Assembly (NCBI RefSeq): GCF_000244955.1
Contig: NZ_CM001439.1
Location: forward strand, 2,756,628 to 2,820,627
DNA from: Saccharomonospora marina XMU15
GTDB lineage: Bacteria; Actinomycetota; Actinomycetes; Mycobacteriales; Pseudonocardiaceae
DNA: 64,000 bases
Direction: 5' to 3'
Numbering within the stretch: the first letter of the stretch is position 1; each line of letters opens with the position of its first letter. Below the pieces are notes generated by a model that did not search any database, was not told the DNA's origin, and worked only from the letters and a program-made list of their open reading frames with translations. Made by a program: the position numbers and the translations under genes. Shown here in pieces: positions 25,951 to 51,817 of this stretch.

Positions 25951-27537
25951 CTAGCCGAGAACGATTACCGCGAACACGGCGGCCACGACCAGCCCGCACA
26001 TCACCGGCAGGAAACAGCGGCGGGCCAACTCCAGTACCGGCACCCGCGCGAACCCGGCGACGGCGATCAGCGACGACCAGGCCACCAGCGTGCCGCCACC
26101 GGACCAGATGTTGCCCATTTGTCCCAGCGCGGCCAGCGTCTCGGCGTTCATGCCCGCGCCGTCGCCGAGGCTGCCCGCGAGCGCGCCGGTGAGCGGCAGC
26201 CCGGAAAAGCCCGACCCGTCGAGGCCCGCGATCACTCCGACGACGAGGATGCCGAAGGCCGCCACGAACGGACTGTCCGGAATGTACTGTTGCGCCGAGG
26301 TGACAAGGTCGAACAGGATGCCCTGTTCCTGCTCGTCGGTGCCGAGGATCTGGCTGGCGAACTCGCCGTTGCCGATGAAGAAGAACCCGGCGATCGGCAA
26401 CACGATGCCCATCGCCTTGAACGCGAAGACCAGCCCGTCGACTACGTGCGTGGCCGACGACTCCAAAAAACCCTTGCCGTCCCCCACCAGCGATGCCAGC
26501 AGCACGATCAGCGCGGCCACTCCACCGACGAGCCCCGCGGCCTGCCCGGCCTGTAGATCAGGCACGGACTCCGACATCTTCGCCACCACCAGGTAGCCGA
26601 TCAGACCCAGGTAGGCCAGCGGAACCAGCACGGCGAACAACGTCGCCGCCGCGGGGTGTTCGGCCACGCCGTCGGGCGGGGTGCCGCCGCCACGGGTCGG
26701 ACCCGGCAGCGCTTCACGCCCCTGACGTGTCTCGCCGGTGGCCTCGCCACCCGCGGGCGCCGGTGGCAGGGTCGCCGTGGCGGTACCCGCCGTGGCCTCC
26801 ACGAGTTCGCGCTCCTCGGCGCCCTCCCTCGGCGCGGCCGCCTCGCGAACGGTGCCGTCCTCTGCCGCGGCCTCCCACTCGGTGAGCAGTCGGGCCGACG
26901 GCGCGCGCATCTTGCGGAACTCCATCGCGTATCCGATGAGCAGTGCCACGCCGCCGACGACCAGCGAAAGCACCATCGCCTTGTCCGTCACCGCGTTCGC
27001 GTCCAGCCCGCCCGCCTGAGCCGAAAGCCCGCCGGCGACCCTGATGACGTAGTCGGAGGACAGCGCCATGCCCTGGCCCGCGCAGGCGATCACCAGCCCG
27101 ACCGCCATCGGCCGCAGCCCCGCCCTGATCGCCACCGGCACGAGCACGGCGCCGATGAGCGGCACCGCCGGTGTCGGCCAGAAGAACAGAGACATGAAAT
27201 AGGTGATGACCACCAGGGCCCAGAAAGCCATGTGCCCGTTGCGCATCACCCGCCGAAACGGTGCGACCATCAACCGGTCTGCCCCGAGCACCTGCAGTGA
27301 GTGCAGCATCGCGGTCACGAGTGCGATAATCAGGAAGATATTGAACAGGTTCGTCGCGGCGACCAGACTCGCGTTGAACACGGCGGTGGTGCCGGTGATG
27401 ACATTTCCGGAGTGGACGAGCGCCGTCAGGAACGTCGCCGCCACGGCGGGTACGACGATGTTCTTGCGCGCGATCATCGTTGCCAGGATGACGACGACAC
27501 CTGCCAGGTAGACCCAGTGTGCTGCTGACAGTTGCAT
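25951..27537 (-). CDS. Multi-pass membrane transporter (GntP/ion-transporter-like), substrate unknown
   Basis: 528 residues from the ATG at 27537, chosen for AAGGG eight bases upstream. About 12 hydrophobic segments lie in two halves separated by a ~85-residue hydrophilic Ala/Glu/Pro-rich loop (residues ~220-310). Re-entrant-looking stretches such as SLFFWPTPAVPLIGAVLVP and LDGSGFSGLPLTGALAGSLG resemble the paired hairpins of the ion-transporter/GntP carriers of organic acids. I cannot name the substrate. It diverges from an MFS gene across 220 bases containing two GTGCAC sites. Confidence 0.7.
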   Translation of the reverse strand: MQLSAAHWVYLAGVVVILATMIARKNIVVPAVAATFLTALVHSGNVITGTTAVFNASLVAATNLFNIFLIIALVTAMLHSLQVLGADRLMVAPFRRVMRNGHMAFWALVVITYFMSLFFWPTPAVPLIGAVLVPVAIRAGLRPMAVGLVIACAGQGMALSSDYVIRVAGGLSAQAGGLDANAVTDKAMVLSLVVGGVALLIGYAMEFRKMRAPSARLLTEWEAAAEDGTVREAAAPREGAEERELVEATAGTATATLPPAPAGGEATGETRQGREALPGPTRGGGTPPDGVAEHPAAATLFAVLVPLAYLGLIGYLVVAKMSESVPDLQAGQAAGLVGGVAALIVLLASLVGDGKGFLESSATHVVDGLVFAFKAMGIVLPIAGFFFIGNGEFASQILGTDEQEQGILFDLVTSAQQYIPDSPFVAAFGILVVGVIAGLDGSGFSGLPLTGALAGSLGDGAGMNAETLAALGQMGNIWSGGGTLVAWSSLIAVAGFARVPVLELARRCFLPVMCGLVVAAVFAVIVLG

Positions 27538-27614
27538 CTGTTTGCCCTTCGAGTGGGACGGCACAGCGTTAACGCAAGAGGTTCCGCGCAGCGACGGCGA
27601 TCCGTCTATCAATC

Positions 27615-27647: not shown

Positions 27648-27757
27648 GATGCCCTGGTATCGCGTTCTTCACCGAGGCAGTCTCAAATGGAGCGCAGCGC
27701 AACCCGCCCGTAACAGCGTCGCGACCGGCGGGGCGCTTTTCGTGTGCGACACCGTGA

Positions 27758-29104
27758 TTGGCGAAAGGTTTGCCGTTCGTGCTGTTCACTCTGCTCGCGG
27801 TGACACTGTTGGGCACGGTCGGCAACAACGTCGTGAATGTCCCACTGCGGGAGCTGTCGGCCGACCTCGGTGTGCCGTTGTCGTCGGGTGTGCTCGCCGT
27901 GAGCTCCTTCCCGCTCGTGCTCGCCGCGACGATGCCGCTGCTGGGTTGGGTCGGTGACCGGTTCGGCCGGGGGCGCACGCTCGTGGTCGCCGAACTGCTG
28001 CTGGTCGGCGCGATGGTCGGGGCCGCGCTCGCGCCCGACCTCGCCACGCTCGCCGCTTTTCGCGGGCTGCAGGGGCTGGCGTGTGCGGCGGCGCCGCCGT
28101 GCGTGATGGGAATGCTGGCCACCCACTACGGGCCGAAGCGGCGTAACCGGATGATGGGCGCGTGGGCGGCGGCCAACGGGATCGGGCAGGCACTCGGCCC
28201 GCCGCTGGGCGGAGTGGTGGCCGAGTCGTGGGGCTGGCGGGCGGTGTTCTGGCTGCTGGCTCCGCTGGCGTTGTTGCTGGTGTTCGCGCTCGTCACGCTG
28301 GTTCCCGCCGAGGCGGGCAGCCGAGCCGGGCTGCACCGACCCGGTGCGGTGGCCTTCACCGCGGGAACCGCCACGTTGCTGTCGGCGGTCGTGCTGGCGC
28401 CGGGGGGCTCGCTGCCCCCCGCCGTGCTCGCCGTACTCGGCGGCGCAGGTGCGCTGGCGCTCGCGGCGTTCGTGGCGATGTCGGCCACGGCGCGCGATCC
28501 GCTGGTGCCGGTGCGACTGCTCGCCGAATCCCGCTTCCTGCGGAGCGCGGTCGCCGCGTGCGCGCAGATGTTCTGTCTCGGCGCGACCCTGGTGGCGATG
28601 CCGCTGTACCTGACGGGAAAGCATGCGCTGCCCTCGGCGCAGGCGGGGCTGGTGGTGTTCGCGTTGCCCGCCACGATGGCGTCGCTGGCCGCCGTGGTGG
28701 GCCTGCTGTGCGAGCGCACCCGGCCGCGACGGGTGCTCAGGCCAGGCCTGCTCACTGTTGCCGCGGCGCAGCTTGCCATGGGAGTCCACGCGCTCGCGTG
28801 GGACGGCCACCTCGCCGTGCTGGTCGCGCTGCTGGTGCTGACCGGCTGCGGGGTGGCGCTGGTGCAGACACCGGCGGCGGCGGGCGCCAGCAGGTCGGCG
28901 GCAGGCGGACCGGCGGCGGCGGGCAGTGCGGGCGCGACCCTCGGCCTGTTCAACACGTTGCGGTTCGGCGGCGCCGCGCTCGGGGCGGCCTGGGTGGGCC
29001 TTGCCTACCCGTGGGGCGAGCCGCTGCTGCTGTTCGGCGGTTGCGCGGCACTCGCGCTGACCGCGTTCGCGGTGAGCTTCGCGGGCAGGGACCCGGTGGG
29101 CTGA
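27758..29104 (+). CDS. MFS drug-type transporter
   Basis: 448 residues if started at TTG 27758; a GTG at 27779 is a good alternative because AAAGG lies 11 bases before it. About 12 membrane segments. MFS landmarks are LGWVGDRFGRGRTLVVAE (loop 2-3), RGLQGLACAAAPPCVMGML (motif C-like) and GIGQALGPPLGGVVAESWGWRAVFW, as in multidrug exporters. The second half is Gly/Ala-rich. The substrate is not predictable. It is divergent from the GntP-like transporter and convergent with the PucR gene. Confidence 0.85.
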   Translation: MAKGLPFVLFTLLAVTLLGTVGNNVVNVPLRELSADLGVPLSSGVLAVSSFPLVLAATMPLLGWVGDRFGRGRTLVVAELLLVGAMVGAALAPDLATLAAFRGLQGLACAAAPPCVMGMLATHYGPKRRNRMMGAWAAANGIGQALGPPLGGVVAESWGWRAVFWLLAPLALLLVFALVTLVPAEAGSRAGLHRPGAVAFTAGTATLLSAVVLAPGGSLPPAVLAVLGGAGALALAAFVAMSATARDPLVPVRLLAESRFLRSAVAACAQMFCLGATLVAMPLYLTGKHALPSAQAGLVVFALPATMASLAAVVGLLCERTRPRRVLRPGLLTVAAAQLAMGVHALAWDGHLAVLVALLVLTGCGVALVQTPAAAGASRSAAGGPAAAGSAGATLGLFNTLRFGGAALGAAWVGLAYPWGEPLLLFGGCAALALTAFAVSFAGRDPVG

Positions 29105-29124
29105 CCGGCTGCTCTGGCGAGCGC

Positions 29125-30810
29125 TCATCCCGGTCCCAGTTCCCGGTCCACCGCCGCCGTCGTCTCCGCCAGCAGGTCCAGTTTGTACGCCAGCCACAAC
29201 GCGAACCGGTGTTCGGCCTCTCGCAGGTCCAACCGCAGTATCCGGGAGGCGCGGTCAAGTTTGTAGAGCATGGTGTTTCGGTGGACGTGCAGCCGCCGTG
29301 CGGCGGCGTTGACGTTGCCCCCGCACTCCACATACGCCAGCACTGCCCGTTCCAGTTCCGACCCCACCGCCGCGCCGCAGCGCAGCGGCGCCAGCAGGTC
29401 ACGGGCGAAGGTCTGGCCGGGTTCGGTGCCCGCCAACTCCACCAGCGCGGCGTACACCCGCAGGTCGTGGAACCCGCACACGTCGGGCAATTCCAGTCGT
29501 AGCCGAAGCCGGAGCGCGATCCGCGCTTCGCGGTAGCTCTCCGCGATCCGCACCGCGCCGGTGACCGGCCTGCCGTAGGCGATGCGCACCGGCTTGCCCA
29601 GCCGCAGCCCCAGGTCACGTTCCAGGGTGGCCGCGTAGGCGGCCACGGCGGCGTCGGCCGCTTCCGGTGTCGCAGCACGGCCCGGGTCGAACGGGTGGAT
29701 GACGGCGAGCACGTCACCCACCGCGGCGGCCAACGTCTGTCCCGCGCCCTGCGGGGCCAGCCTGCTCGCCTCCCTCGCCATGGCGGCCGTCACGCTCCCT
29801 TCCGGTGCGGCACCCACCAACACCGCGTAGTCGCAGTCGGTGGGAAACCGGTAGTGGGCCGCCCTGGCACGCAGGTCGGAGGCGTTTCCGAAACGGCCGT
29901 GCAGCAGCGCGTGCACGAAGTCGCCGCGCGCCCGCTCCTCGGCCTCGGAGATGCTGTGCATCCGCAGCAACTCCGTTCCCACGATCGTCACCGCCTGCTC
30001 CACGACGACCCGGTGCTGCGCCAGATCGTGCGGATGCGGCGGGCGGTTCGGTTCGATCAGAAGTACCCAGCCGTCGTGCCGCCCGCCGAGCACGATCGCC
30101 GCCACCACGCACGTGTACGGCCTACCGCCGAAGGTCGCGTCACCGACCACGGCGGGGCCGTGACCGCTGTGCAGCGACTCGGCGACCAGCCCGGGCGGTT
30201 CCTCCGCGAGTGTGCGGGCGACCTCCGCCTCGTCGAGGGTGGCCGGTGCGGCCCGCGCGAACGCCAGCACTTCCCGATCGGCGTCCAGCACGGCCACGGC
30301 GCAGTGCGAAAGCCTGGCCAGTTGGTGACACAACGCCGAAACCCCGGCGCCCCGGTAAAGCAGCTCGGCGAGCGAGCGGTGCACGGTGACGCCGTAGCGC
30401 AGCACGTGAGCCTCGTGGGCCAGCGCGAGCTCGGCGACCAGCCTGCCGACCTCGTGGTAGTCGACCTGCGCGCCCACCGACACCACAGGTAACCGTGCCG
30501 AGGTCGCGGCCGGGTCCGCTGCCGCGGCGGGACCCGACACCAGCAGCGCGGCCGCTCCGCGGTCACCCAGCCGCCGCAGCCCGGCCTCGGTGAGCTGCTC
30601 GCCGCGAGCGAACACCAGCACGCCACGCAGTGACGCGGTGCCGCTGACAGCCTGCTCCCACGGCAGGCACCAGGTCAGCGCCACATCGGTCGGCCCTGCG
30701 ACGCCCGCGTCCCTGAACGGGAGTTCCTGCAGCAGCCTGGCCAGAGTCAGCTCACCAGGGTCCGTGGCGTCCCGCACGGTGTTTTCCACGTTTTCCACGC
30801 TGGTTTTCAC
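29125..30810 (-). CDS. PucR-family transcriptional regulator
   Basis: 561 residues. The N-terminal ~120 residues match the PucR ligand-sensing domain ([20 protein letters not shown]). The middle part is GAF/GGDEF-like, and the C-terminal helix-turn-helix is [30 protein letters not shown]. Such regulators control purine or amine and other nitrogen-compound catabolism. The gene diverges from the GlcG/HbpS-like gene across 124 bases. The RidA end of the HDO cluster lies just beyond that gene, so a catabolic link is possible but not shown. Confidence 0.85.
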
Positions 30811-30934
30811 ACTGCCCCCTCATGGACAGACTGCACAGCTTTCCTCGACGGCGATACGGCAGCTTGACCATTGCCGCCCCCCTCGCGCAAGCGTCAGATT
30901 GGTGACGGCGAAAGCGACCGCGAGGAGGACGAAC

Positions 30935-31396
30935 GTGCACACGGTCAACCGGATTACACTTGACGACGCGCTGCCGATGCTGGCGGCGGCCCGCGCCAAG
31001 GCCGAGGAACTCGGGGTGCGGCAGACGATCTGCGTCTGCGACGACGGCGGAAACGTCGTCGCACTGCACCGGCTGCCGGGAGCCCGGTTGACCGGCGTGG
31101 ACATCGCCATCGCGAAAGCGTTCACCGCAGCGGGGCACGAGCGGGCCACCCACAAGTTCAACGAACCGCCGGACGGCCCCGCGCTTCCCGGCAACGAGGC
31201 GTTCGGGATCAGCCACATGCTGCCTGGCAAGTTCGCCATCTTCGTCGGCGGTTTCCCGATCGAGTACGAGGGGCAGATCGTCGGGGGAGTGGGCATCAGC
31301 GGCGGTAACGGCGAGCAGGACAAGGCTGTCGGTGCCGCGGCGTTGCGCGCCTTCGCCGAGCACGCCGAGCACGCCGCCACGCTCGCCGCCGGATAG
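30935..31396 (+). CDS. GlcG/HbpS-family haem-binding-like protein
   Basis: 153 residues from the GTG at 30935, with GAGGAGG upstream. The profile (ITLDDALPMLAAARAKAEELGVRQTICVCDDGGNVVALHRLPGA; IAIAKAFTAAG; IVGGVGISGGNGEQDKAVGAAAL) is the GlcG/HbpS (DUF336) fold. Members are found in glycolate, diol and aromatic catabolism operons, and HbpS in Streptomyces binds haem. No signal peptide is visible, so it is cytosolic here. It is probably controlled by the divergent PucR protein. Confidence 0.85.
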   Translation: MHTVNRITLDDALPMLAAARAKAEELGVRQTICVCDDGGNVVALHRLPGARLTGVDIAIAKAFTAAGHERATHKFNEPPDGPALPGNEAFGISHMLPGKFAIFVGGFPIEYEGQIVGGVGISGGNGEQDKAVGAAALRAFAEHAEHAATLAAG

Positions 31397-31473
31397 CGCT
31401 ACCGCGGGCGGTGCCGCCCGGCCTCGGCCGAAAGCACCGCCCGCCACGAGGCACACCTCCTCTGCGCACGCTC

Positions 31474-31947
31474 CTACCGCACGGCGGCGGTGAGATCCAC
31501 CTCCACGGCGGCGCCCGACGGCAGGCAGCGGACCCCGACGGCGGTGCGCGCGACGGCGCCGCGCTCGCCGAGCCAGGCACGAAGCGTCCGCGACGCGCCG
31601 TCGGCCACCGCCGAGTGCTCCGTGAAGTGCTCGGCGCAGGCCACGTACACGGTCAATCGCAGGCACCGCTCGATGCGGTCCAGCCCTCCCGCGGCCTCGG
31701 CGATCGCCAGCAGCGCGTTGGCCGCCGACAGCGCCGCGGCCTGGCCTGCCCGCCGCGTGCCGACGTCCTCGCCGACCCGCCCGCTCACCCGTAGCCGCCC
31801 GCCGCTTCTGGGGGTCATGCCCGCGCTGAACGCCAGCCCGCCGTGCACCACTGCGGGTACGTAGTCGCCCTGCGGCGGTGGTGCCGCCCGGGCCGTGACG
31901 TCATGGGCCCGGTCGGTCCCGCCTGTCGCCGGCTTCCTCGTTCTCAA
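31474..31947 (-). CDS. RidA-family (YjgF/UK114) protein
   Basis: 157 residues from a TTG at 31947 that overlaps the upstream Rieske stop as TTGA; no later in-frame start leaves the fold intact. VVHGGLAFSAGMTPRSGGRLRVSGRVGEDVGTRRAGQAAALSAANALLAIAEAAG and RTAVGVRCLPSGAAVEVDLTA are RidA features, including the active-site Arg near the C-terminus. RidA enzymes hydrolyse reactive enamines and imines, or act on catabolic intermediates. As the last gene of the HDO operon it may clear an imine produced by the pathway. The N-terminal ~30 residues are extra. Confidence 0.75.
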   Translation of the reverse strand: MRTRKPATGGTDRAHDVTARAAPPPQGDYVPAVVHGGLAFSAGMTPRSGGRLRVSGRVGEDVGTRRAGQAAALSAANALLAIAEAAGGLDRIERCLRLTVYVACAEHFTEHSAVADGASRTLRAWLGERGAVARTAVGVRCLPSGAAVEVDLTAAVR

Positions 31948-32312
31948 CCGGCGGTCCCGCGCCGCCTGGGACCTGCGAGCCTGCTGCCCTGCGCGATGTC
32001 GTGCTCGGTCAACCCGACGAAGATCTCGCCGTTCTCCTCCTTGACCGGGAACGTCTTGATCGGCTCCGTCGCGGGCGGGCACACCGCCTCGCCGGTTCGC
32101 AGGTCGAACACGCTGCCGTGGCAGGAGCAGCCGATGCCGTCGTCGACCAGCTTGCCCGACGACAGCAGGCAGTCCAGGTGGGTGCAGTAGTTCGACGTCG
32201 CGTAGGCGGTGCCGCGTAGCCTCGCGACGGCCAGTTCCAGCTCGCCCGCGAAGAACCGGCGGACGTAGCCGTCGGGCACCTGGCCGGAACGGGCCACCCT
32301 GACGTACTCCAT
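31944..32312 (-). CDS. Rieske [2Fe-2S] ferredoxin-like protein (second copy)
   Basis: 122 residues. The Rieske ligands are C43-x-H45 (NYCTHLD) and C62-x2-H65 (GCSCHGSVFD), followed by ATEPIKTFPVKEENGEIFVGL, as in bacterial Rieske ferredoxins of dioxygenase systems. It should shuttle single electrons in the cytosol. It lies downstream of the aldehyde dehydrogenase and overlaps ridA by four bases. Together with the Rieske protein at 35051-35383 this makes two electron carriers for one reductase in the cluster. The C-terminal ~15 residues (RLAGPRRRG) are probably disordered. Confidence 0.88.
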   Translation of the reverse strand: MEYVRVARSGQVPDGYVRRFFAGELELAVARLRGTAYATSNYCTHLDCLLSSGKLVDDGIGCSCHGSVFDLRTGEAVCPPATEPIKTFPVKEENGEIFVGLTEHDIAQGSRLAGPRRRGTAG

Positions 32313-32364
32313 TGCGATGTTCCTTCCTTGGCTGTGGTGGCGAAGTGTTGTCCGCCGCGTCGGG

Positions 32365-33801
32365 TCAGGACGCCACGTACACCGTCTTCTCCACGGTGTA
32401 GAAACGCGACATCGTCTCGCCCGCCTGCTCCTTGAACGTCTGCGTGCTCGATTCCTTCAGCCCACCGAACGGCGCGTTCATGGCCATTCCCGTGGTGGGT
32501 TGATTGACCTTCACCAGACCGGTCCGCATCCGGTCTGCGAAGTCGAGGGCGGCACCGAGATCGGCCGTCACCACCGCCGCCGACAGCCCGTAGTCGCTGT
32601 CGTTGGCCAGCCGCACCGCCTCGTCGAACGAACCCGCGCGCAGGAAGGCCAGCACAGGGCCGAAGATCTCCTCGCGGGCAAGCTGCGAGCCTGCGTCGAC
32701 CTCGCTGAACACCGTGGGCAGGAAGAAGTGGCCGTGCGCGTAGCGCTCGCCGCCGGGCGGCTGCCCGCCGGTGCGCAGCACCGCGCCCTCGGAGAGCCCG
32801 ATCCGCACGTACTCGGCGGTCTTGGCCAGTTGCCGCGCCGTGGCCAGCGGGCCCATGTCCACCCCGCCGGCGAGCCCTTCGCCGAGTCGCAGCGCCTCGG
32901 CCCGCCGCACCACGCGCGCGAGCAGTTCGTCGTGCACGGCGTCGGCGGCGATAACCCTGCTGGTGCCGGTGCAGGCCTGTCCGGAAAGGCCGAACGCGCC
33001 ACGCACCACGATGTCGGCCGCCCGGTCCAGGTCCGCGTCGGGAAGCACGACCACCGGGTTCTTGCCACCCATCTCGAGTTGGCAGCGCCTGCTGGGACCC
33101 ACTGCGCCGTGGATGCTGTTGCCTGCGGCCGTGGAACCGGTGAAGGTGACGGCCGCGACTCGCCGGTCCCTCGCCAGTGCCGCGCCCACCTCCGCGCCGC
33201 CGTGTACGAGTGCCAGCGCCCCGGCGGGAACCCCGGCCCCGAGCAGCGCTTCCACCAGCCGCGTCGCCAGCAGCGGCGTGACCTCGCTGGGTTTGTAGAT
33301 CACGCCGTTGCCGCACGCCAGTGCCGGGCCGAGCTTGCGGGAGGGGATGTTCAGCGGGAAGTTCCACGGGGTGATGGCCCCCACCACACCCACAGCGGAC
33401 CGTGCGGTGTAGACCAGCCCGGACTCCGAAGGGTAGGTGCTGCCCGTCGCGCGCAGCGCCTCGCCCGCGTAGAAGCGCAGGTTAGCCGGCGTGCGGCGCA
33501 CCTCCATGGTCGCCTCGGCCAGCGTCTTGCCCTCCTCGGACACCAGTTCGGCCGCCAGCTTCTCCGGGTCACGTTCGAGCAGCGCCGCCGCGGTGTCCAG
33601 GATTTCGGCTCGCCGCTGCGGCGAGGTGCGCGCCCATTCGACGTGGCCGTCGGCGACCGCGCTGACGGCGGCATCGACATCGGCGGCCGTGGAGTCGGGT
33701 GCGGTGGCCACCAGTTGCCTGGTGTCGGCGGGGTTGTGGCGGTCTCGCACCCTGCCGCTCGCCGAGGCCATCCACTCGCCACCGATCAGGTTCGCGCTCA
33801 C
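32365..33801 (-). CDS. Aldehyde dehydrogenase (semialdehyde-dehydrogenase type)
   Basis: 478 residues. The catalytic set is canonical: N147 in TPWNFP, E243 in LEMGGKNP and C277 in GQACTGTSR. The sequence around LYKPSEVTPL-like and MNAPFGGLKESS resembles alpha-ketoglutaric or succinic semialdehyde dehydrogenases. It should oxidise an aldehyde produced in the pathway to an acid with NAD(P). It overlaps the upstream reductase gene by four bases, so it is translated within the HDO operon. The substrate is inferred only in outline. Confidence 0.9.
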   Translation of the reverse strand: MSANLIGGEWMASASGRVRDRHNPADTRQLVATAPDSTAADVDAAVSAVADGHVEWARTSPQRRAEILDTAAALLERDPEKLAAELVSEEGKTLAEATMEVRRTPANLRFYAGEALRATGSTYPSESGLVYTARSAVGVVGAITPWNFPLNIPSRKLGPALACGNGVIYKPSEVTPLLATRLVEALLGAGVPAGALALVHGGAEVGAALARDRRVAAVTFTGSTAAGNSIHGAVGPSRRCQLEMGGKNPVVVLPDADLDRAADIVVRGAFGLSGQACTGTSRVIAADAVHDELLARVVRRAEALRLGEGLAGGVDMGPLATARQLAKTAEYVRIGLSEGAVLRTGGQPPGGERYAHGHFFLPTVFSEVDAGSQLAREEIFGPVLAFLRAGSFDEAVRLANDSDYGLSAAVVTADLGAALDFADRMRTGLVKVNQPTTGMAMNAPFGGLKESSTQTFKEQAGETMSRFYTVEKTVYVAS

Positions 33802-35054
33802 CCGGCTTCCTCCATCATCAGTTCGAACAGGTCGACGCTGTCGTCGCGCAACACGTCGGGCTCCACCACGGCCTGCTGCGACACCAACTCCCTCGCCGCC
33901 ATCGCGTCTTCTCCCCGCTCGGCCGCGAACGCCGCCCGCACCACGCCGTCAAGCAGGTAGAACGCGCAGAAGTCCAGATCGGACAGTGAGCCCCTGACCA
34001 CGACCTCGTCCCAGCATGGCGCGTGCCCGGTGTACTGCAGGTTCAGCCCGTACTGGTCGGAGTAGAACCAGTGCGGCTCGGTGAACGGTGCCGCGTGGCC
34101 GAGCATCGCGTCGGCCGCTGTGGTCGCCAGCCTGCCTGCCGCCTCGACGTGTTCGGCGCGGATATGCTCGCCGAACAGCGCGTGGTAGTGGTTGGCCACA
34201 TCACCTGCCGCGAACACCGAGGGCGAACTCGTGCGACAGCAGCCATCGACGACGATCCCGTTGTCCACCTTGATGTCCGCACCCGCCACGACGTCGACAT
34301 CGGGCTCGATCCCGACCCCCACCACCACGGCGTCCGCGTCGATACGCGCACCGGTTCCGGTCACCACGGTGACACCGTCGCGGCCGTGCACAACCGAGGT
34401 CACCGACTGCCGAAACCGCACCTCGACCCCGTTGGCGCGGTGCAACTCGGCGCACACCGCGCCGAGCCGGGGACCCAGCAGTTGGCGCATCGGCACGTCG
34501 AGGGCCTCCAGCAGCACTACCTCGACCCCGAGTGTGCGCGCCGTGGCAGCCACCTCCGAGCCGATGAACCCCGCGCCGACCACCACCACTCGCGCGCCAG
34601 GCGCCAGCCGCTCGCGCAGCCGATCGGCGTCGCGGCGCGTGCGTAGGGTGTGCACGCGTTCACCCGCGATGCCGGGCAGGGCGCGCGGGCGCCCTCCGGT
34701 CGCGACCAGCACCCGGTCGGCCCTGACCGAGCCGCCCCCCTGCAGCAGCACGGCGCCTTCGGAAGGGTCGATCCCCGACGCGGCGCTGCCCAGCCGCAGC
34801 CGCACCCCGTTCTCTTCGCACCACCGCGGCGAAAGCAGGCCCAGCTCACCCGCGGTGGCGGGGTCGGCCAGGTACTCCTTGGACAGCGGTGGCCGCTGGT
34901 ACGGCGGCTCCGGCTCGGCGCCGATCAGTTCGATGCGCCCGTCGTAGCCGCGCCTGCGCAGTGTCCGCGTCGCCACGGCGGCCGCCTGCCCCGCGCCGAC
35001 GATCGCGATGGTGCCGATGCTTGCGGTGCCGTCGGTGCCGCTCACTCGGCTCAC
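33798..35054 (-). CDS. FAD-dependent ferredoxin (Rieske) reductase
   Basis: 418 residues from the GTG at 35054, in a GTGA overlap with the upstream Rieske stop. It has two Rossmann motifs, IAIVGAGQAAAVATRTLRR (FAD) and VVVVGAGFIGSEVAATAR (NAD), and the later FAD contact SVFAAGDVANHYHALFGEHIRAEHVEAAGR, the rubredoxin/ferredoxin reductase pattern of oxygenase systems. The C-terminal dimer domain is present. It should pass electrons from NAD(P)H to the neighbouring Rieske proteins and from them to the diiron oxidase. Confidence 0.9.
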   Translation of the reverse strand: MSRVSGTDGTASIGTIAIVGAGQAAAVATRTLRRRGYDGRIELIGAEPEPPYQRPPLSKEYLADPATAGELGLLSPRWCEENGVRLRLGSAASGIDPSEGAVLLQGGGSVRADRVLVATGGRPRALPGIAGERVHTLRTRRDADRLRERLAPGARVVVVGAGFIGSEVAATARTLGVEVVLLEALDVPMRQLLGPRLGAVCAELHRANGVEVRFRQSVTSVVHGRDGVTVVTGTGARIDADAVVVGVGIEPDVDVVAGADIKVDNGIVVDGCCRTSSPSVFAAGDVANHYHALFGEHIRAEHVEAAGRLATTAADAMLGHAAPFTEPHWFYSDQYGLNLQYTGHAPCWDEVVVRGSLSDLDFCAFYLLDGVVRAAFAAERGEDAMAARELVSQQAVVEPDVLRDDSVDLFELMMEEAG

Positions 35055-35383
35055 CCCGCCGCGCCGACGCGCCCGCGGCGAACCGGGTTGACGTACACCC
35101 GGTCGCCGTCGACGCGCACGTCGAAGGTCGGCTGGCACAGCGGCTGATCGTGGGCCTGCCCGGTCGCCGGGTCGAACCGCCACTGGTGGCCGGGGCACAC
35201 CACCGCGCCGCCCAGCACGACGCCCTTGCTCAGTGACCGTTGCCTGTGCACGCAGACGTCGTGCAGCGCGTAGACCTGACCGTCCACAAAAAACAGTGCG
35301 ATCTGCTCGCCCGCCACCACGACCCGCTTCTTCTTGCGCCTTGCGAGTTCGCTGAGGTCGGCGAGGTGAAGCCACTCTGCCAT
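35051..35383 (-). CDS. Rieske [2Fe-2S] ferredoxin (first copy)
   Basis: 110 residues. The Rieske ligands are C44-x-H46 (DVCVHRQRSL) and C63-x2-H66 (VCPGHQWRFD). The ending GDRVYVNPVRRG is typical of small Rieske ferredoxins. It lies nine bases after the HDO stop and overlaps the reductase gene, so it is the likely immediate electron donor to the HDO enzyme. The RRKKKR stretch near residue 16-20 is an unusual basic patch and may be a docking site (inference). Confidence 0.88.
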   Translation of the reverse strand: MAEWLHLADLSELARRKKKRVVVAGEQIALFFVDGQVYALHDVCVHRQRSLSKGVVLGGAVVCPGHQWRFDPATGQAHDQPLCQPTFDVRVDGDRVYVNPVRRGRVGAAG

Positions 35384-35392
35384 GGCGGGCGC

Positions 35393-36106
35393 TCAGGCGG
35401 TGACGAGGTCGGGCGCGACGTAGGTGTCGTAGAGCGCCTTGGTGTAGGCGAACCGCATCTCCGCGCCCCAGCGAACGAAGTCCAGGCAACGCTGCTGCAG
35501 TGCGGGCGTGTCGGCGTGGTCGAGCACGATCTGGAACCCGCGCTCGCCGTGCACCTCGTCGGAGGTGATGTGCAGGTCGAAGAACTCGATCTCGTCCTCG
35601 GTGAAGCCGTACACCTCCCGCAGCGGCACGATCTGCTTGCGGTAGATGCTCGGCACCTGCGACTCCAGCCCCACCACCAGCGCCGCCGTGGCGACGGCGA
35701 AGTGCTCACGCATAGCGGTGGCATAGCACCACGCCTGCAGGCCACGGGTGACCGCGTTCATGTTCTTCGGGTCCTGCACCCGCTCCCGGGTGGTACCGCA
35801 CGCCTGCGCGAACCGGATGAGCAGGTCGGTGTGGCGGATGTCGGCGAGTTCCTCCTCGTACATGTTCTGCAGCAGGAAGTCCTTGGCGCCGGTGCAGGAT
35901 TCGGGCGTGTTGCCGTAGATGTAGCCGAGGTAGTCGGCGAAGGGACCCACGTAGTGGTAGTGGTTCTCCGCCCAGCGGGCGAAGTGGTGGCGCTTGAGTT
36001 CGCCGTCCGCCCACGCCTTGCTGAACGACGCGTTCTTCGCCTCTCGGCCCTTGATGGCGTCCTCCAGCGCGGCGCGGAACTCGGTGTGCGGGAGAAGCTC
36101 GGTCAT
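35393..36106 (-). CDS. Haem-oxygenase-like diiron oxidase (HDO; TenA/PqqC/CADD-like)
   Basis: 237 residues from the ATG at 36106, preceded by GGAGGTGG. The all-helical TenA-like fold carries a complete HDO metal set: E85 and H92 (EEELADIRH), E148 (VGLESQ), and H179-D183-H186 (HITSDEVH). The spacing matches the CADD protein of Chlamydia (E81, H88, E142, H174, D178, H181), so an Fe2 site is well supported. HDOs oxidise amines, acids or amino acids with O2. The two Rieske proteins and the reductase next to it would supply electrons. The substrate is unknown. Confidence 0.85.
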   Translation of the reverse strand: MTELLPHTEFRAALEDAIKGREAKNASFSKAWADGELKRHHFARWAENHYHYVGPFADYLGYIYGNTPESCTGAKDFLLQNMYEEELADIRHTDLLIRFAQACGTTRERVQDPKNMNAVTRGLQAWCYATAMREHFAVATAALVVGLESQVPSIYRKQIVPLREVYGFTEDEIEFFDLHITSDEVHGERGFQIVLDHADTPALQQRCLDFVRWGAEMRFAYTKALYDTYVAPDLVTA

Positions 36107-36292
36107 GTGGACCACCTCCGGGGATTCGCTGCGGTTGCGCTCACCCGAAGCTACGGAGCGGGCCCGCTGACCCTCCATGGACACAGTGCACGGGAGTCGG
36201 CGAGTTCTGCTGTGCACTCTGTGCTTGGGCACGGCGGGCCACGGCGGTGAGCAGCCTTGCCGCCGCCGCACCGCCGCGGTCCGCGTCGAGGT
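36107..36292 (-). repeat. Spacer containing a partial duplicate of the mshC-like 3' end
   Basis: Bases 36244-36296 are an imperfect copy of 36309-36364, the end of the mshC-like gene. Read on the minus strand past the stop, the duplicate still encodes LDADRGGAAAARLLTAVA, which resembles the genuine end LDFAIERGGGAARLLTAALG. This tandem duplication lengthened the spacer before the HDO gene. No other gene is visible in the spacer. Confidence 0.6.
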
Positions 36293-37441
36293 TCAGCTCA
36301 GGCCGAGTGCGGCGGTGAGCAGCCGTGCGGCACCGCCGCCGCGCTCGATGGCGAAATCCAGCGCGGCAGGCACGTCGAGGTCGGCGGCCAGAATCTGGCG
36401 CAGCCGCTCCACATCGTCCTCGTCGGTCACCCCGACCCGGCTGCCCGCCGCCTGGTGCAGGTCCTCCAGCCGGGCCGCGGCGACGTCGAGCACACCGGGG
36501 GTGTACTCCCACGACTGCGCCCACGGTCGGTCGATGATCGCCAGCCGCACCACCTGCGCGGGGCGGGTGGCGAGCAGATCCTCGAGCAACACCAGGTTGC
36601 CCGTCGACTTCGCCATCTTGGCTCCGTCGACGGTGACGGTGCCGACGTGCAGCCACGCCCGCGCGTACGGCGCCACGCCGGTCAGCGCCTCCGCCATCGC
36701 GGCATGGTAGGCGTGGTGCGGGAACCGCAGGTCCGCGCCACCCGCGTGGATGTCCACGCCGACGCCGAACGTGGAGGTGGACATCGCCACGCACTCGGCG
36801 TGCCAGCCGGGCCTGCCCGGGCCCCACGGAGAGTCCCAGGACGGGTGACCGGGTTCGGCGGGCTGCCACACCGCGACGTCGAACGGGTCGTCCTTGACCG
36901 GATCGTCCGGCCTGCCGCCGAACTCCCTTGCCAGCCGTAGTGCGTCCCGCTCTTCGAGCCCGCAGCGCCGTACGACGTGGCTGCCTCGGAAGAAGACCCC
37001 GCCCTCACGCACGTAGGCGGACCCCTCCTCGGCCAGCGCGGCCGCCAGCCGGATCACCGCGTCCACGTAGCGATGTGCCCTCGGTTCGTAGTCGGGGGTG
37101 CGCACGTTCAGCGCCGTCATGTCGCCCTCGAACCTGAACTGGCCGAACGCCGCGAAGTGGTCGTAGCGCACCCCGGCTTCCCGTGCCGCGTCGTCGAGCA
37201 CGTCGTCGATGTCGGTGACATTGCGGCACACGATCGGCTCGACGCCGAGCACGCGGAGGACCCTGCTGAGAGTGTCCACCCAGACGAACGTCGCGGCGTG
37301 ACCGAGGTGGGTCACGTCGTAGGGGGTGATCCCGCAGTTGTAGATCCTGGCGTGGTCGAGCAGCCTGACCCGGCGGTCGCCGAGGGTGACGGCCGTCGCG
37401 CCCGCGATGGGTCGCCGTCTCGTCATCGATTCGAACGTCAT
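36293..37441 (-). CDS. MshC-like cysteine ligase (CysRS/MshC family)
   Basis: 382 residues from the ATG at 37441 (an internal ATG at 37426 is also possible). It is a class I aminoacyl-ligase: Y-N-C36-GITPYD with HLGH (45-48), DGAKMAKST (KMSKS loop, ~273-280), and zinc ligands C36, C217 (GWHAECVAM) and H242 (FPHHAYH). The fourth CysRS ligand Glu is replaced (H246), and CGITPYDxTHLGHA is the MshC wording, so it should activate cysteine for attachment to an amine rather than to tRNA. Canonical mshC is not expected in this context, so it is probably a paralogue. It overlaps lysR as ATGA. Confidence 0.75.
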   Translation of the reverse strand: MTFESMTRRRPIAGATAVTLGDRRVRLLDHARIYNCGITPYDVTHLGHAATFVWVDTLSRVLRVLGVEPIVCRNVTDIDDVLDDAAREAGVRYDHFAAFGQFRFEGDMTALNVRTPDYEPRAHRYVDAVIRLAAALAEEGSAYVREGGVFFRGSHVVRRCGLEERDALRLAREFGGRPDDPVKDDPFDVAVWQPAEPGHPSWDSPWGPGRPGWHAECVAMSTSTFGVGVDIHAGGADLRFPHHAYHAAMAEALTGVAPYARAWLHVGTVTVDGAKMAKSTGNLVLLEDLLATRPAQVVRLAIIDRPWAQSWEYTPGVLDVAAARLEDLHQAAGSRVGVTDEDDVERLRQILAADLDVPAALDFAIERGGGAARLLTAALGLS

Positions 37442-38346
37442 GCGCCCATCGTGCCCTTGGCGCATCCCGCCCGCCCGCCCGGCGGGGTCGAGTGTGTGGC
37501 GACCACGTCGCGGGCGAGCGCGAGCAGGGAAGGCACGGCGGGATGGGGGCGGTCGCGCCGCCAGGCGAGTACGACCTCGATGGGTGGGGCGTCGGTGACC
37601 GGCACGAACGTGACACCCGGATAGGTGTGCACACTCGGTGTCGCAGAAGTGGTGAGCCCGACGGCACGGCCGGCCGCGATCGCGGCGAGCCAGTCGTCGG
37701 TGTTGGCCACCTCCAGTGCCCTGGTCGGACGGGTCCGCACCGGCCACAGGTCGAGCGTGGTGACACCGGAGACGGGGTTGACGGCGACCGTCTCGCCGGT
37801 GAAGTCGGCCATGCTCAGCGTCCGGTACCCCGCCAGGCGGCTTCCGGTCGGCACGGCCGCGACCCGCCGCTCGGTGAGCACCGGCTCCGACACCAGCGCC
37901 CTCGCCTGTACCTTCGCCCGCAGCAGCGCGGCATCCACCCTGCCCTCGGCCAGTCCCGCGGTGCGTTCGTCGATGCGCAGCAGTTCCAGCGGCGAACCCG
38001 GGTGCTCGCGTTCCCAGCGCCGAAGCAGGGTCGCGGTGTGAGGGCCCAGCGCGGCCCACGCGTGTCCCACCCGCAGCGGTGACGGTCGCACCCCAGCGGG
38101 GTCGAGCGCCTCGGTCACCACGGCGAGCGCGGTGGCCGCTCGCTCGCGGAACCGCTCGCCCTGCGTCGTGAGCGCCAGCTTGTGGGTGGAGCGCTCGACC
38201 AGCCGAACCCCGAGGTGTGTCTCGAGTTGGCGCAGCGTCCGCGAGACGGCGGGCTGCGAAAGGTGCAGCTTCTCGGCGGCGCGGGTGATGTTGCCCTCCT
38301 CGGCGATGGCGAGGAAGCAACGAAGGTGGCGCAGCTCGACGGTCAT
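37438..38346 (-). CDS. LysR-family transcriptional regulator
   Basis: 302 residues from the ATG at 38346 (MTVELRHLRCFLAIAEEGNITRAAEKLHLSQPAVSRTLRQLE). The N-terminal winged helix and the PBP-like inducer domain (LRVGHAWAALGPHTATLLRR...) are standard. It is the first gene of the leftward cluster, coupled to the mshC-like gene by an ATGA overlap, and diverges from the EamA/decarboxylase pair. A LysR-type operator (38360-38380) sits between them, so it likely controls both arms. The inducer is unknown but may be a pathway amine or amino acid. Confidence 0.9.
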   Translation of the reverse strand: MTVELRHLRCFLAIAEEGNITRAAEKLHLSQPAVSRTLRQLETHLGVRLVERSTHKLALTTQGERFRERAATALAVVTEALDPAGVRPSPLRVGHAWAALGPHTATLLRRWEREHPGSPLELLRIDERTAGLAEGRVDAALLRAKVQARALVSEPVLTERRVAAVPTGSRLAGYRTLSMADFTGETVAVNPVSGVTTLDLWPVRTRPTRALEVANTDDWLAAIAAGRAVGLTTSATPSVHTYPGVTFVPVTDAPPIEVVLAWRRDRPHPAVPSLLALARDVVATHSTPPGGRAGCAKGTMGA

Positions 38347-38359
38347 GCGCGCCAAGCAT

Positions 38360-38380
38360 AATGCCACCTCGATCGGCATT
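38360..38380. promoter_or_regulatory. LysR-type operator in the divergent promoter
   Basis: AATGCC (38360-38365) and GGCATT (38375-38380) form a perfect 6-bp inverted repeat with a nine-base spacer. It lies 14 bases from the lysR start and 36 bases before the exporter start. The dyad with a 9-11 base spacer is typical of LysR recognition sites next to their own gene. It would tie both divergent arms to one regulator. Confidence 0.6.
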
Positions 38381-38415
38381 TCACAGCCGACGGCCGCGCC
38401 CATAGCGTCACCGTC

Positions 38416-39444
38416 GTGACTCGCGCCGATTCGCCGCCGGATTCACTGTCCGATTCGCTGCCGGGTTCGCCCGGCTCCACCCGGAAGCTCGGCTCGGTGG
38501 GACTGGTACTGGGTGGGGCGCTGTCGCTGCAGTTCGGTGCGGCCGTGGCCGCGCTGCTGTTCGCTCGCGCCGGGTCGCTGGGCGTGGTGGCGCTGCGGCT
38601 GGCGTTCGCGGCCGTGGTGCTGCTGGCGGTGTGCAGGCCCGCCGTGCGCGGGTACCGGCGGGGGGACTGGCTGCACGTGGTGGCTTTCGGCGCGACGCTC
38701 GCCGGCATGAACACGCTGTTCTACCAGGCGATCGAGCGCATCCCGCTGGGAGCGGCGGTGACACTGGAGGTGCTGGGGCCGCTGGCACTGTCGGTGGCCG
38801 CCTCGCGCCGCCCGGCGAGCTTGGCGTGGGCGGCACTGGCGCTGGCCGGGGTGTTCCTGCTGGGGCGGGGCGGGTTCACCCGGCTGGAACCGGCGGGCGT
38901 GGCCTTCGCGCTGGCGGCAGGGGTGCTGTGGGCCTGCTACATCGTGCTCAGCTCGCGGGTGGGCGCCCGCTTCCCGCGCGCCGACGGGCTGGCGCTCGCG
39001 CTGGCGTTCGCAGCGGTGCTCAGCCTGCCGGTCGGCGCGGCCGCCGCGGGTCCGGCGCTGCTGGACCCGGTGACGCTGGCGCTGGGCCTCGCCGTGGCGG
39101 TGCTGTCGTCGATGCTGCCGTACACACTGGAACTGCTGGCGCTGCGTACGCTGCCCCCGGCGACGTTCGCCGTGCTGATGAGCCTGGAACCGGCCATCGC
39201 GGCGCTCGCCGGGTTCGCCGTGCTCGGCCAGCGGTTGACCGCCGTGGAATGGGTGGGCATCGGGGCGGTCGTGCTCGCCAGCGCGGGCGCGGTGCGCATG
39301 CGTACAGTCGGGCACCGTGGACGAGCTGACGCAGTTGCTGACGCGGGCCGCGACCGCCGCGGCCGACTACCGGCGCGGCGCGCACCTTCGCCACGTCGGC
39401 GCCCGCGCCGACGCCGCCACGCTTCGCGAGCGGTTCGGCGGTGA
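38416..39444 (+). CDS. EamA/RhtA-type exporter
   Basis: 342 residues as annotated from the GTG at 38416. Ten hydrophobic helices in two DMT repeats (LVLGGALSLQFGAAVAALLFARAG; LSSMLPYTLELLALRTLPPATFAVLMSLEPAIAALAGF). The helix 9/10 motif resembles RhtA-type threonine/homoserine exporters, so an amino acid or amine export role fits. The family core ends near residue 297; the last ~45 Arg-rich residues are read through the start of the decarboxylase gene, an out-of-frame overlap of 128 bases. Confidence 0.85.
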   Translation: MTRADSPPDSLSDSLPGSPGSTRKLGSVGLVLGGALSLQFGAAVAALLFARAGSLGVVALRLAFAAVVLLAVCRPAVRGYRRGDWLHVVAFGATLAGMNTLFYQAIERIPLGAAVTLEVLGPLALSVAASRRPASLAWAALALAGVFLLGRGGFTRLEPAGVAFALAAGVLWACYIVLSSRVGARFPRADGLALALAFAAVLSLPVGAAAAGPALLDPVTLALGLAVAVLSSMLPYTLELLALRTLPPATFAVLMSLEPAIAALAGFAVLGQRLTAVEWVGIGAVVLASAGAVRMRTVGHRGRADAVADAGRDRRGRLPARRAPSPRRRPRRRRHASRAVRR

Positions 39445-40774
39445 ACTGCCGCGGGAGCCGACCCCGCCCGGCGAGGTGCTGAGCCAGCTGCTCGCGGCCG
39501 CCGAGGACGGCCTCGTCGCCACCGTCGGCCCCCGGTTCTTCGGGCTGGTCGTCGGGGGCTCACTGCCCGCGGCCACCGCGGCCGACCTGCTCGCCACCGG
39601 CTGGGACCAGTGCGCCTTCAACGCAGCCGTCGCGCCCGCCGCGGCTGCGGCCGAGCAGGTGGCGGGTGAGTGGCTCGCGGACGTGCTCGGCCTGCTCGAG
39701 GGGGTCTCGGTCGGGTTCGTCACCGGTGGCCAGGCCGCCAACACTGTCGGCCTGGCCTGTGCACGGCACCACCTGCTGGCGCAGGCGGGCTGGGACGTCG
39801 AGCGCGACGGGCTCGCGGGCGCACCGAGGGTCCGCGTCGTGGCCTGCCGCGAACGGCACGCGACGATCGACGCGTCGCTGCGGCTGCTGGGCTTCGGAAC
39901 CTCGGTGCTGGAACCGGTGGCCGCGGGCGGCAACGGCGCGATCGACATCGCCGACCTGGAGCGGGTGCTCGACCGCGGCCGCGGCCCCGTGCTGGTGTGC
40001 CTGCAGGCGGGCAACGTGAACACCGGCGCGTGCGACGACCTGCGCGCGGCCTGCGGGCTGGTGCGCGAGCACGGCGGCTGGTCGCATGTGGACGGCGCGT
40101 TCGGGCTGTGGGCGGCGGCGAGCCCGGCGACGGCGGCGCTGGTGGACGGCGTCGAACTCGCCGACTCCTGGGCCTGCGACGGGCACAAATGGCTCAACGT
40201 GCCCTACGACAGCGGCTTCGCCTTCTGCTCGCGTCCCGACGTGCACGCCGCGGCGATGTCCTACACCGCCGCCTATCTCGCCGGGTCCGGCACGGGCTCG
40301 CCCGCGCTCGGCGACCTGGTTCCCGAGTCGTCGCGAAGGGCCAGGGGCTTCGCGGTGTGGGCCGCGCTGCGCGAACTGGGCAGGGACGGGCTTGCCCGAC
40401 TGGTACTGCGCTGCCACACGCTGGCTCGCCGGTTCGCCTCGGCACTGGCCGACGGCGGCGCAGAGGTCGCCAACGACGTGGTGCTCAACCAGGTGCTCGT
40501 CCGGTTCGGCAACGACGAGCAGACCGCGCGGGTGATCGAGGCCGTGCAGCGTGACGGCACCTGCTGGCTGGGTGGCACCACCTGGCGGGGCAACCGCTAC
40601 CTGCGGATAGCGGTGTCGAACCACTCCACCACCGAGGCCGACGTCGATCGCAGTGCCGCCGCGATCCTGCGCTGTGCGGCCGAGGTCAGGAACAAGGTCG
40701 GAAACGAGGCCGGGAACGACGTCGGGAACGAGGTCAGGAACGCAGCAGGGGACGCGCCGCCGGAGCGCCCCTGA
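39317..40774 (+). CDS. Group II PLP-dependent amino-acid decarboxylase
   Basis: 485 residues from a start at 39317. Fold-type I decarboxylase markers are H181 (ERHATIDAS), D259 (SHVDGAFG) and the Schiff-base K291 (ACDGHKWLNVPYD). It resembles aromatic-L-amino-acid and glutamate-type decarboxylases, giving an amine plus CO2. It overlaps the exporter and shares its promoter with the HDO cluster, so its amine may be the substrate of the MshC-like ligase (inference). The C-terminal 20 residues come from a 12-bp tandem repeat (VRN-K-VGN-E-AGN-D motif), and the gene overlaps the convergent zinc-ribbon gene by 41 bases. Confidence 0.85.
   Translation: MDELTQLLTRAATAAADYRRGAHLRHVGARADAATLRERFGGELPREPTPPGEVLSQLLAAAEDGLVATVGPRFFGLVVGGSLPAATAADLLATGWDQCAFNAAVAPAAAAAEQVAGEWLADVLGLLEGVSVGFVTGGQAANTVGLACARHHLLAQAGWDVERDGLAGAPRVRVVACRERHATIDASLRLLGFGTSVLEPVAAGGNGAIDIADLERVLDRGRGPVLVCLQAGNVNTGACDDLRAACGLVREHGGWSHVDGAFGLWAAASPATAALVDGVELADSWACDGHKWLNVPYDSGFAFCSRPDVHAAAMSYTAAYLAGSGTGSPALGDLVPESSRRARGFAVWAALRELGRDGLARLVLRCHTLARRFASALADGGAEVANDVVLNQVLVRFGNDEQTARVIEAVQRDGTCWLGGTTWRGNRYLRIAVSNHSTTEADVDRSAAAILRCAAEVRNKVGNEAGNDVGNEVRNAAGDAPPERP
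40685..40744 (+). repeat. 12-bp tandem repeat at the 3' end of the decarboxylase gene
   Basis: Five imperfect 12-base units (GTCAGGAACAAG, GTCGGAAACGAG, GCCGGGAACGAC, GTCGGGAACGAG, GTCAGGAACGCA) encode repeated [VA]-[RG]-N-[KED] tetrads in the C-terminal tail. The last units overlap the 3' end of the convergent gene. Copy number may vary between strains. Confidence 0.8.
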
Positions 40775-41328: not shown

Positions 41329-42633
41329 ATGGCGGCGCCGAGGATGGCGGAAACCGGCGAAATCGGGCGCGAGAACGTCGCGCTTCGACGCCTGGTCGCG
41401 GTTTACCGCCACCTGTCCAGCCTGGCGGTGCAGGACGACGGCATCGAGGCGGTCATCGAACTGATCGCCGAGCGTGTCGATGCCACCGTGGCCGTCGTCG
41501 ACGACAAGCTCACCGTGCTCGCGGCCGCGTCGCCCTCGGCGAGCACCGACGAGGCGGCACGGCTGGTGGGTGAGCGCATGGTGCACCCGAGGCTGGCGCA
41601 GGTGCTCGGTGTCGCGGGCAGGACCCGGCGCGCGCTGCGGCTGCCCGACGTCGAGGAGGCCGCGCCCGTCGTCGTCGCTCCCGTCCTCGTCGGCGACGAG
41701 GTCCCCGCCTACCTGATGACACTGGACGAGACCGCCGAGCGCACCGGTGAGGACCTGCGGCTGCTGCTGACCGAGCACGCGGCGACGATCTGCGGCGTGA
41801 TCCTCGGCCGCGAGCGGGTGGTGGCCGCCGCCGCGACGCAGGTTCGCTACGACCTCGTCGAGGGCCTGCTGTCCGGAACCGGCGGGGACGCCGAGGAGGT
41901 ACTGCGGTGGGCTCGCCACCTCGGTTACGACACCGAGTGCGACCACCGGGTGATCTGCCTGGTGTACGACGACGAGCAGGGCCTCGGCGGCGAGAGCGCG
42001 GAGTTGGGCAGCCGCGTGGCGGCGGCCGTGGAACGCTTCTTCACCACGCACGCGCCGGAGGCCATCACGGCGGTGCGCGATGCCGAGGTGGTCGTGGTGC
42101 TCGGCGAACCCGATCCGGAGGCGCCCAGAGCCGAGCGGCTGGCGCGGGACTGCCTGCGCCGGATGCGGGAACTGTTCCGCACCGTCGCGGTCACCGCGGG
42201 GATCGGGGCGACCTGCCGTGCGCCGACGGAGATCGCCCGCTCCTACGGTGAGGCGCGGCGCACGGTGGAGGTGACCAGGCGGATGGGCCGCACCGGGGTC
42301 GCCGTCTCCTTCGAGGACCTCGGAATCCACCGGCTGCTGTTGCAGGTGGCCGATCCCGAGCAGTTGCGGCAGTTCGCACGCGAGGTGTTCGGCGGGCTCA
42401 CCACGGGCGGGCGCGGCAACGCCGCCGACTACCTCACCACCCTCGGCTGCTACTTCAGGGCCAACAACAGCCCGCAGCGCGCCTCGCAGGTGCTGCATGT
42501 GCACCCGAACACGGTGACCTACCGGGTACGCAGGGTGGAGGAGCTGACCTCGCTGGACTTCGGCAGCTACCGTGACCGGTTGCTGGCGCAGGTCGCGCTG
42601 GAGATCCTGGACGCGGTCGGGGAGGGACGATGA
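41329..42633 (+). CDS. PucR/CdaR-type transcriptional regulator
   Basis: 434 residues. A GAF-like N-terminal half (LSSLAVQDDGIEAVIELIAERVDATVAVVDDKLTVLAAASP) and a GGDEF-like central region precede a C-terminal HTH (YFRANNSPQRASQVLHVHPNTVTYRVRRVEELTSLDF). It belongs to the PucR/CdaR helix-turn-helix group. It overlaps the metH::metF-like gene by four bases, suggesting it is in the same transcript and may regulate it. Two palindromes lie in its promoter. Confidence 0.85.
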   Translation: MAAPRMAETGEIGRENVALRRLVAVYRHLSSLAVQDDGIEAVIELIAERVDATVAVVDDKLTVLAAASPSASTDEAARLVGERMVHPRLAQVLGVAGRTRRALRLPDVEEAAPVVVAPVLVGDEVPAYLMTLDETAERTGEDLRLLLTEHAATICGVILGRERVVAAAATQVRYDLVEGLLSGTGGDAEEVLRWARHLGYDTECDHRVICLVYDDEQGLGGESAELGSRVAAAVERFFTTHAPEAITAVRDAEVVVVLGEPDPEAPRAERLARDCLRRMRELFRTVAVTAGIGATCRAPTEIARSYGEARRTVEVTRRMGRTGVAVSFEDLGIHRLLLQVADPEQLRQFAREVFGGLTTGGRGNAADYLTTLGCYFRANNSPQRASQVLHVHPNTVTYRVRRVEELTSLDFGSYRDRLLAQVALEILDAVGEGR

Positions 42634-44465: not shown

Positions 44466-44513
44466 CGCCGAACTCGCTGAGCGAGCAGGCGAGGTCGGGC
44501 CGATAGTGGAGCG

Positions 44514-44585
44514 ATGAGTGCTGACCCGGTTGCCCGGGTGACCTGCCCGGTCGGTGCCGTCGAGATCCGGCCGGTGCTCGGGTGA
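44514..44585 (+). CDS. 23-codon ORF overlapping the MTHFR start
   Basis: ATG 44514 preceded by GTGGAG; the peptide begins MSADPVARVTCPVG and stops in a GTGA overlap with the next gene's GTG. The arrangement would couple translation of the MTHFR to this ORF. It has no recognised signature, and may be chance or a short leader. Confidence 0.3.
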   Translation: MSADPVARVTCPVGAVEIRPVLG

Positions 44586-51788: not shown

Positions 51789-51817
51789 AACAGCACACCC
51801 AGCGGCGAGTTCGCCGC

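Follow-up and report, generated by a model that had tools for sequence, protein, structure and literature searches.

Heme-oxygenase-like dimetal oxygenases (HDOs) form a large superfamily. About a dozen of these enzymes have been characterised, mostly biosynthetic ones (PMC13108848, a 2026 review), with MboB acting as redox partner in the MboA/MboB system (PMC13108848). Here we describe an HDO and its conserved gene neighbours in a 64,000-nucleotide stretch (the window; NZ_CM001439.1, positions 2,756,628 to 2,820,627) of the actinomycete Saccharomonospora marina XMU15, whose 5.97 Mb genome is a single contig. The protein shares the HDO fold and 3H/3C-type ligands with MboA/MboB, UndA, BesC, SznF, HrmI and FlcE. 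In contrast to these biosynthetic systems, it is found in an apparent import and degradation setting, has a Rieske relay and is conserved across phyla.

Neither the gene set, nor the HDO name, nor the M. smegmatis locus tags led to a description in the open-access literature searched; a subscription journal may still contain one. The cluster is apparently undescribed so far; an earlier reading of the letters of this DNA (the first-pass annotation) likewise knew of no described pathway with the gene set that it had proposed. Two known systems were considered as matches and rejected. These are histamine/imidazoleacetate degradation (hin genes), in which HinF is an FAD monooxygenase and not an HDO, and Dirammox, whose DnfA is annotated as an aminobenzoate oxygenase and presumably belongs to the AurF/ferritin-like class.

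Results

The HDO forms the right-hand end of a conserved unit located at window positions 25951–36106, which contains a permease without assigned family, a major facilitator superfamily (MFS) transporter, a PucR regulator, an HbpS-like protein, RidA, two Rieske ferredoxins, an aldehyde dehydrogenase, an FAD reductase and the HDO itself. We read this unit as a co-inherited import-and-oxidation module for nutrient use of a small organic compound, most likely a nitrogen-containing organic acid, with a probability of roughly 0.6. Direct observations are the gene content and its conservation, the HDO ligands and fold, the concordance of permease and HDO across genomes, and the replacement of the redox chain in some relatives. 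The features of the unit are given below, together with the number of full-length HDO loci (58 in total) containing each partner.

25951..27537, minus strand: permease with many helices (PERM), no Pfam or NCBIfam family, fold near the ion-transporter superfamily; 53/58 loci
27770..29104, plus strand: MFS transporter (Pfam MFS_1); 50/58 loci
29125..30798, minus strand: PucR-type regulator (Pfam HTH_30/GGDEF_2); 54/58 loci
30899..31396, plus strand: HbpS/GlcG-like protein (Pfam HbpS-like, 7.6e-35), start codon uncertain; 51/58 loci
31474..31851, minus strand: RidA/YjgF-family protein (Pfam; nearest in PDB PA0814), 5' end unclear; 43/58 loci
31944..32312, minus strand: Rieske ferredoxin 2, CTH...CSCH (Pfam Rieske, 1.1e-17); 47/58 loci
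32365..33801, minus strand: aldehyde dehydrogenase (Pfam Aldedh, 9e-147); 56/58 loci
33798..35045, minus strand: FAD ferredoxin reductase of the HcaD/AndAa type (Pfam, NCBIfam); 55/58 loci
35051..35383, minus strand: Rieske ferredoxin 1, CVH...CPGH (Pfam Rieske, 9.6e-19); 54/58 loci
35393..36106, minus strand: HDO (Pfam Haem_oxygenas_2, 1.9e-35), ligands E85, H92, E148, H179, D183 and H186
36107..36292, minus strand: 186-bp gap 5' of the HDO, a putative promoter region dividing it from the ligase gene beyond

The six metal ligands, already named in the first-pass annotation, align with those of CtCADD; five are identical in 96/96 orthologous loci, and E148 in 95/96. An AlphaFold model of the HDO (pLDDT 82) is nearest in fold to CtCADD (TM 0.81/0.89), followed by PqqC, UndA and HrmI, with heme oxygenases scoring far lower. 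The likeness to CADD/PabS extends to the E-x6-H ligand spacing. In contrast, identity in the structural alignment is ~21–22%, and the HDO is accompanied by a dedicated redox chain and degradative partners. In CADD, Tyr27 is sacrificed (consumed) and Lys152 is catalytic; these are replaced by Ser29 and Gln158 in the HDO, in 96/96 loci. Furthermore, the NCBIfam CADD/PabS model TIGR04305 gives 89.7 bits against a cut-off of 200. Given the replacement of both residues, the HDO is no 4-aminobenzoate (pABA) synthase.

To define the partners, named genomes were scanned, yielding 497 candidate loci. The best 80 were read (best segments 82–92% identical to the HDO), their genes called and the proteins clustered, and the partner counts were taken from the 58 full-length loci. 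Gene order varies, for example in Rhodococcus, Actinomadura and Pseudonocardia, and the occurrence of several orders favours functional linkage over common descent of one stretch. Within the host's GTDB family, the HDO occurs in 12 of 249 genomes (nine genera, 83–100% identity). An orthologue is present in 2 of 396 genomes sampled across the phylum, one of these being the window genome, and the next-closest relatives in the phylum are at about 33% identity or below. Hence, the HDO group is sharply bounded. It is also patchily distributed, and orthologue comparison shows the HDO to be nearly invariant across phyla. At Mycolicibacterium loci L099, L102, L108, L120 and others, the unit sits in the ribosomal operon region, flanked by a sulfatase gene on one side and the genes for ribosomal proteins L14 and L5 on the other.

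Among the genomes tested, permease and HDO are strictly co-inherited, the permease being present in 12/12 genomes with the HDO and 0/18 without (30 genomes; Fisher p about 1e-8, uncorrected for relatedness). Its model (pLDDT 71) gives weak fold matches to carriers of the ion-transporter superfamily (TRAP-M, ArsB, INDY). It represents a nameless family for which neither Pfam nor NCBIfam has a model. The MFS transporter is of the drug-efflux type.

Outside the Actinobacteria, plasmid and megaplasmid records were surveyed, and the only close HDO relatives among them were found in Cupriavidus and Caballeronia (67–72% identical). In those of these loci that were read, the HDO is located beside an aldehyde dehydrogenase (48%) and an HbpS-like protein (56–62%; 60–62% in Cupriavidus), and Cupriavidus also keeps the permease beside the HDO (48–49% identical). 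Plant-type 2Fe-2S ferredoxins and an FNR-type (Fer2/FAD/NAD) reductase are present instead of the Rieske chain, while Desertimonas has one Rieske protein together with one ferredoxin of plant-type cysteine spacing. The actinobacterial chain is thus exchanged for one that is unrelated to it but presumably does the same job. The Rieske and reductase proteins therefore most likely supply electrons to the HDO, and this exchange is the strongest evidence for such a role.

The Rieske ferredoxins and FAD reductase are of the types known from Rieske ring-hydroxylating dioxygenase chains (HcaC/HcaD, AndAb/AndAa). Unlike those systems, the unit contains two Rieske ferredoxins, and the oxygen-activating partner is the HDO. 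No Rieske oxygenase alpha or beta subunit was found in the unit, which holds only stand-alone Rieske ferredoxins of 110–122 aa, and no alpha subunit family (Rieske plus catalytic domain) is among those conserved at HDO loci. The NCBIfam hits listed for the aldehyde dehydrogenase all fall below cut-off, the best being 2,5-dioxovalerate dehydrogenase, and its PDB relatives are generic, so that it gives no clear pointer to a substrate.

Most relatives' loci (52/58) add a hydrolase with the fold of gamma-glutamyltransferase (GGT), a gene that is absent from the window genome. In E. coli GGT, the glutamate-binding residues are Asp433 and Ser462/463. The family consensus of the GGT-fold partner retains the nucleophile region, whereas these gamma-glutamyl-binding residues are replaced. 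It therefore differs from true GGT and is more likely an amidohydrolase. It shares fold family and nucleophile region with the GGT-fold amidohydrolases of Thermoplasma (2I3O) and Bacillus (2NLZ), among which we also take HpxW to belong. RidA of the window has the conserved Arg. At its 5' end (31851–31943), there is no in-frame start directly ahead of a conserved PPQGDY stretch; this odd end is possibly a trace of loss of the GGT-fold gene. RidA was not seen in the Caballeronia and Desertimonas loci, which contain an ornithine-cyclodeaminase (OCD)-family protein (the Desertimonas assignment is by sequence reading), and Caballeronia has an alpha/beta hydrolase in place of the GGT-fold hydrolase. 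These exchanges suggest that imine and amide handling recur.

The first-pass annotation had placed all genes from a PLP-dependent decarboxylase to RidA in one cluster, with coupling overlaps (ATGA, GTGA, TTGA) at several joints of its leftward run. The genes it named are all present and of the right type (Pfam and NCBIfam), and the LysR/ligase and FAD reductase/aldehyde dehydrogenase genes do overlap, by ATGA and GTGA respectively. The TTGA, however, is the stop of Rieske ferredoxin 2 alone, 92 bp from the RidA start. The remaining gaps are 9 bp (HDO to Rieske ferredoxin 1), 5 bp (Rieske ferredoxin 1 to FAD reductase) and 52 bp (aldehyde dehydrogenase to Rieske ferredoxin 2), and the ligase–HDO joint is the 186-bp gap. 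These spacings split the supposed operon into at least two units, LysR–ligase and HDO–Rieske ferredoxin 1–reductase–aldehyde dehydrogenase (Rieske ferredoxin 2–RidA). Furthermore, the ligase, LysR, EamA and decarboxylase genes lie outside the conserved unit, which, given the location of its partners, reaches 5.5 kb further left than had been proposed. A complete HDO with its own Rieske and reductase supply, aldehyde dehydrogenase and RidA is supported.

Discussion

In the proposed pathway, the permease would bring the substrate in and PucR would sense it. NADH would donate electrons to the FAD reductase, from which the Rieske ferredoxins would carry them to the two-metal site of the HDO, and this site would activate O2 and oxygenate a nitrogen-containing substrate. 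An amide may then be cleaved by the GGT-fold hydrolase where present, or in relatives by an alpha/beta hydrolase or an amidase, with an imine or enamine handled by RidA or an ornithine-cyclodeaminase-type enzyme, and the resulting aldehyde presumably oxidised by the aldehyde dehydrogenase. N-heterocyclic acids and amino-acid-like amines are candidate substrates, and the pathway direction is probably catabolic. Only tentatively, at somewhat less than even odds, do we propose the detailed chemistry: a catabolic dimetal HDO with its own two-Rieske/reductase relay that oxygenates an N-containing acid (e.g. with opening of an N-heterocycle) and is served by a new permease family, the later steps being hydrolysis of an amide, deamination of an imine and oxidation of an aldehyde. 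An HDO module with its own electron chain in many Actinobacteria and some Burkholderiales would allow growth tests both of the reductant used in nature and of a role in degradation, should it have one.

Several points weigh against an import-and-oxidation module for nutrient use. The catabolic direction is read from the regulators and transporters and from the lack of assembly enzymes, and the permease, a putative importer, has a model of medium confidence. The window genome has no GGT-fold gene, and some other loci lack either this gene or RidA; the hydrolase step would accordingly be dispensable in places or done elsewhere. Chemical reductants suffice for many HDOs in vitro, and hence the redox chain could serve another enzyme. 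In addition, the co-occurrence statistics ignore the relatedness of the genomes.

The alternative that survives best, although we consider it unlikely, is that the module, like the characterised HDOs, serves to make a specialised metabolite, with the transporters exporting the product. Non-heme HDOs are indeed reviewed in connection with the biosynthesis of secondary metabolites (PMC13108848), and the drug-efflux-type MFS transporter would suit such a role. However, the gene families conserved at HDO loci include no carrier, nonribosomal peptide synthetase/polyketide synthase or tailoring scaffold genes, while PucR, RidA, aldehyde dehydrogenase and hydrolase are typical degradation genes. The near invariance of the HDO across phyla and the modelled fold of the other transporter, the permease, which resembles that of anion importers, also argue against export of a specialised product.

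Less probable again is detoxification, in which the HbpS-like protein would sense a toxic amine or aldehyde and the HDO and aldehyde dehydrogenase would remove it, or else heme degradation. Among the PDB relatives of the HbpS-like protein is EfgA, a formaldehyde sensor, and the Pfam family is named as heme degrading. The retention of all six non-heme ligands and a fold nearest to CADD, far from the heme oxygenases, speak against heme as substrate, and a co-inherited permease would be needless for detoxification.

The following features lie to the right of the unit:

36293..37441, minus strand: MshC/CysRS-like ligase, outside the unit, with intact Cys-site motifs, the third such paralogue in this genome
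37438..38346, minus strand: LysR regulator (Pfam), outside the unit, ATGA overlap with the ligase
38360..38380, no strand: inverted repeat AATGCC-N9-GGCATT between LysR and EamA, putative operator
38416..39444, plus strand: EamA/RhtA-like exporter (Pfam, NCBIfam), outside the unit
39317..40774, plus strand: PLP-dependent decarboxylase (Pfam), outside the unit; 46/249 family genomes, 0/58 HDO loci

It was suggested in the first-pass annotation that an amine produced by the decarboxylase is joined to cysteine by the MshC-like ligase, that the HDO oxidises the conjugate, and that aldehyde dehydrogenase and RidA finish the pathway. In the window's genus, the ligase and decarboxylase genes do adjoin the HDO unit. 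LysR, ligase and decarboxylase genes are also side by side in two related genera, and within one family genomes with both the HDO and the PLP decarboxylase are slightly more frequent than expected by chance (p = 0.011, uncorrected for relatedness). The wider distribution does not agree with a shared pathway. Of the 12 HDO genomes, six lack the ligase, which is present in 68 of the 249 family genomes, 62 of them without the HDO. The two are found together in 6 genomes, against an expectation of 3.3 (one-sided Fisher p = 0.075 over the 249, again uncorrected). Adjacency is confined to the window's genus; in two other genera 7.4 kb separate the genes, and in 2 more of the 12 they are ~640 kb apart (a fourth genus) or on different contigs (a fifth). 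The wider scan placed the ligase near the HDO in 1 of 58 full-length loci and the decarboxylase in none. The same annotation had held that its pathway would fall if HDO and ligase did not co-occur in relatives, and for the ligase this is what the distribution shows. The cysteine-ligase pathway is thus largely refuted, and we regard it as very improbable; the ligase, LysR, EamA and PLP decarboxylase genes are mere neighbours of the HDO unit.

A 4-aminobenzoate synthase function of the CADD type for the HDO, suggested by CADD/PabS being the closest solved relatives in sequence and fold with the same ligand set and spacing, is scarcely credible given the replaced residues, the score below cut-off and unit partners that make no sense for pABA.

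Neighbouring genes

The ligase motifs GITPYD...GH, WHAEC, FPHH and KMAKS align with 3C8Z/8HFM, in agreement with a class I enzyme with a zinc/cysteine site. Its score against the MshC equivalog TIGR03447 is 281 bits, below the cut-off of 485. The genome also encodes CysRS and, at another site, a separate MshC-like copy (38–44% identical to the ligase), and the ligase falls into a clade distinct from both MshC and CysRS (100/99 support). In a survey of ligase contexts no partner was constant, and a neighbourhood with a Liv-type importer is common to close genera only (type read from the gene set, not from a family search). The inverted repeat between LysR and EamA is a plausible operator.

Three further arrangements were observed in the window. 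In the 776-aa protein encoded at 22781–25111, an MGDG-synthase/GT28-like glycosyltransferase is fused to a wax-ester-synthase/DGAT domain. A PucR regulator, a homocysteine S-methyltransferase/MTHFR fusion and a second MTHFR follow one another at 41329–45469, and a tandem pair of styrene-monooxygenase-A-like proteins is followed by an aldehyde dehydrogenase at 49286–54401.

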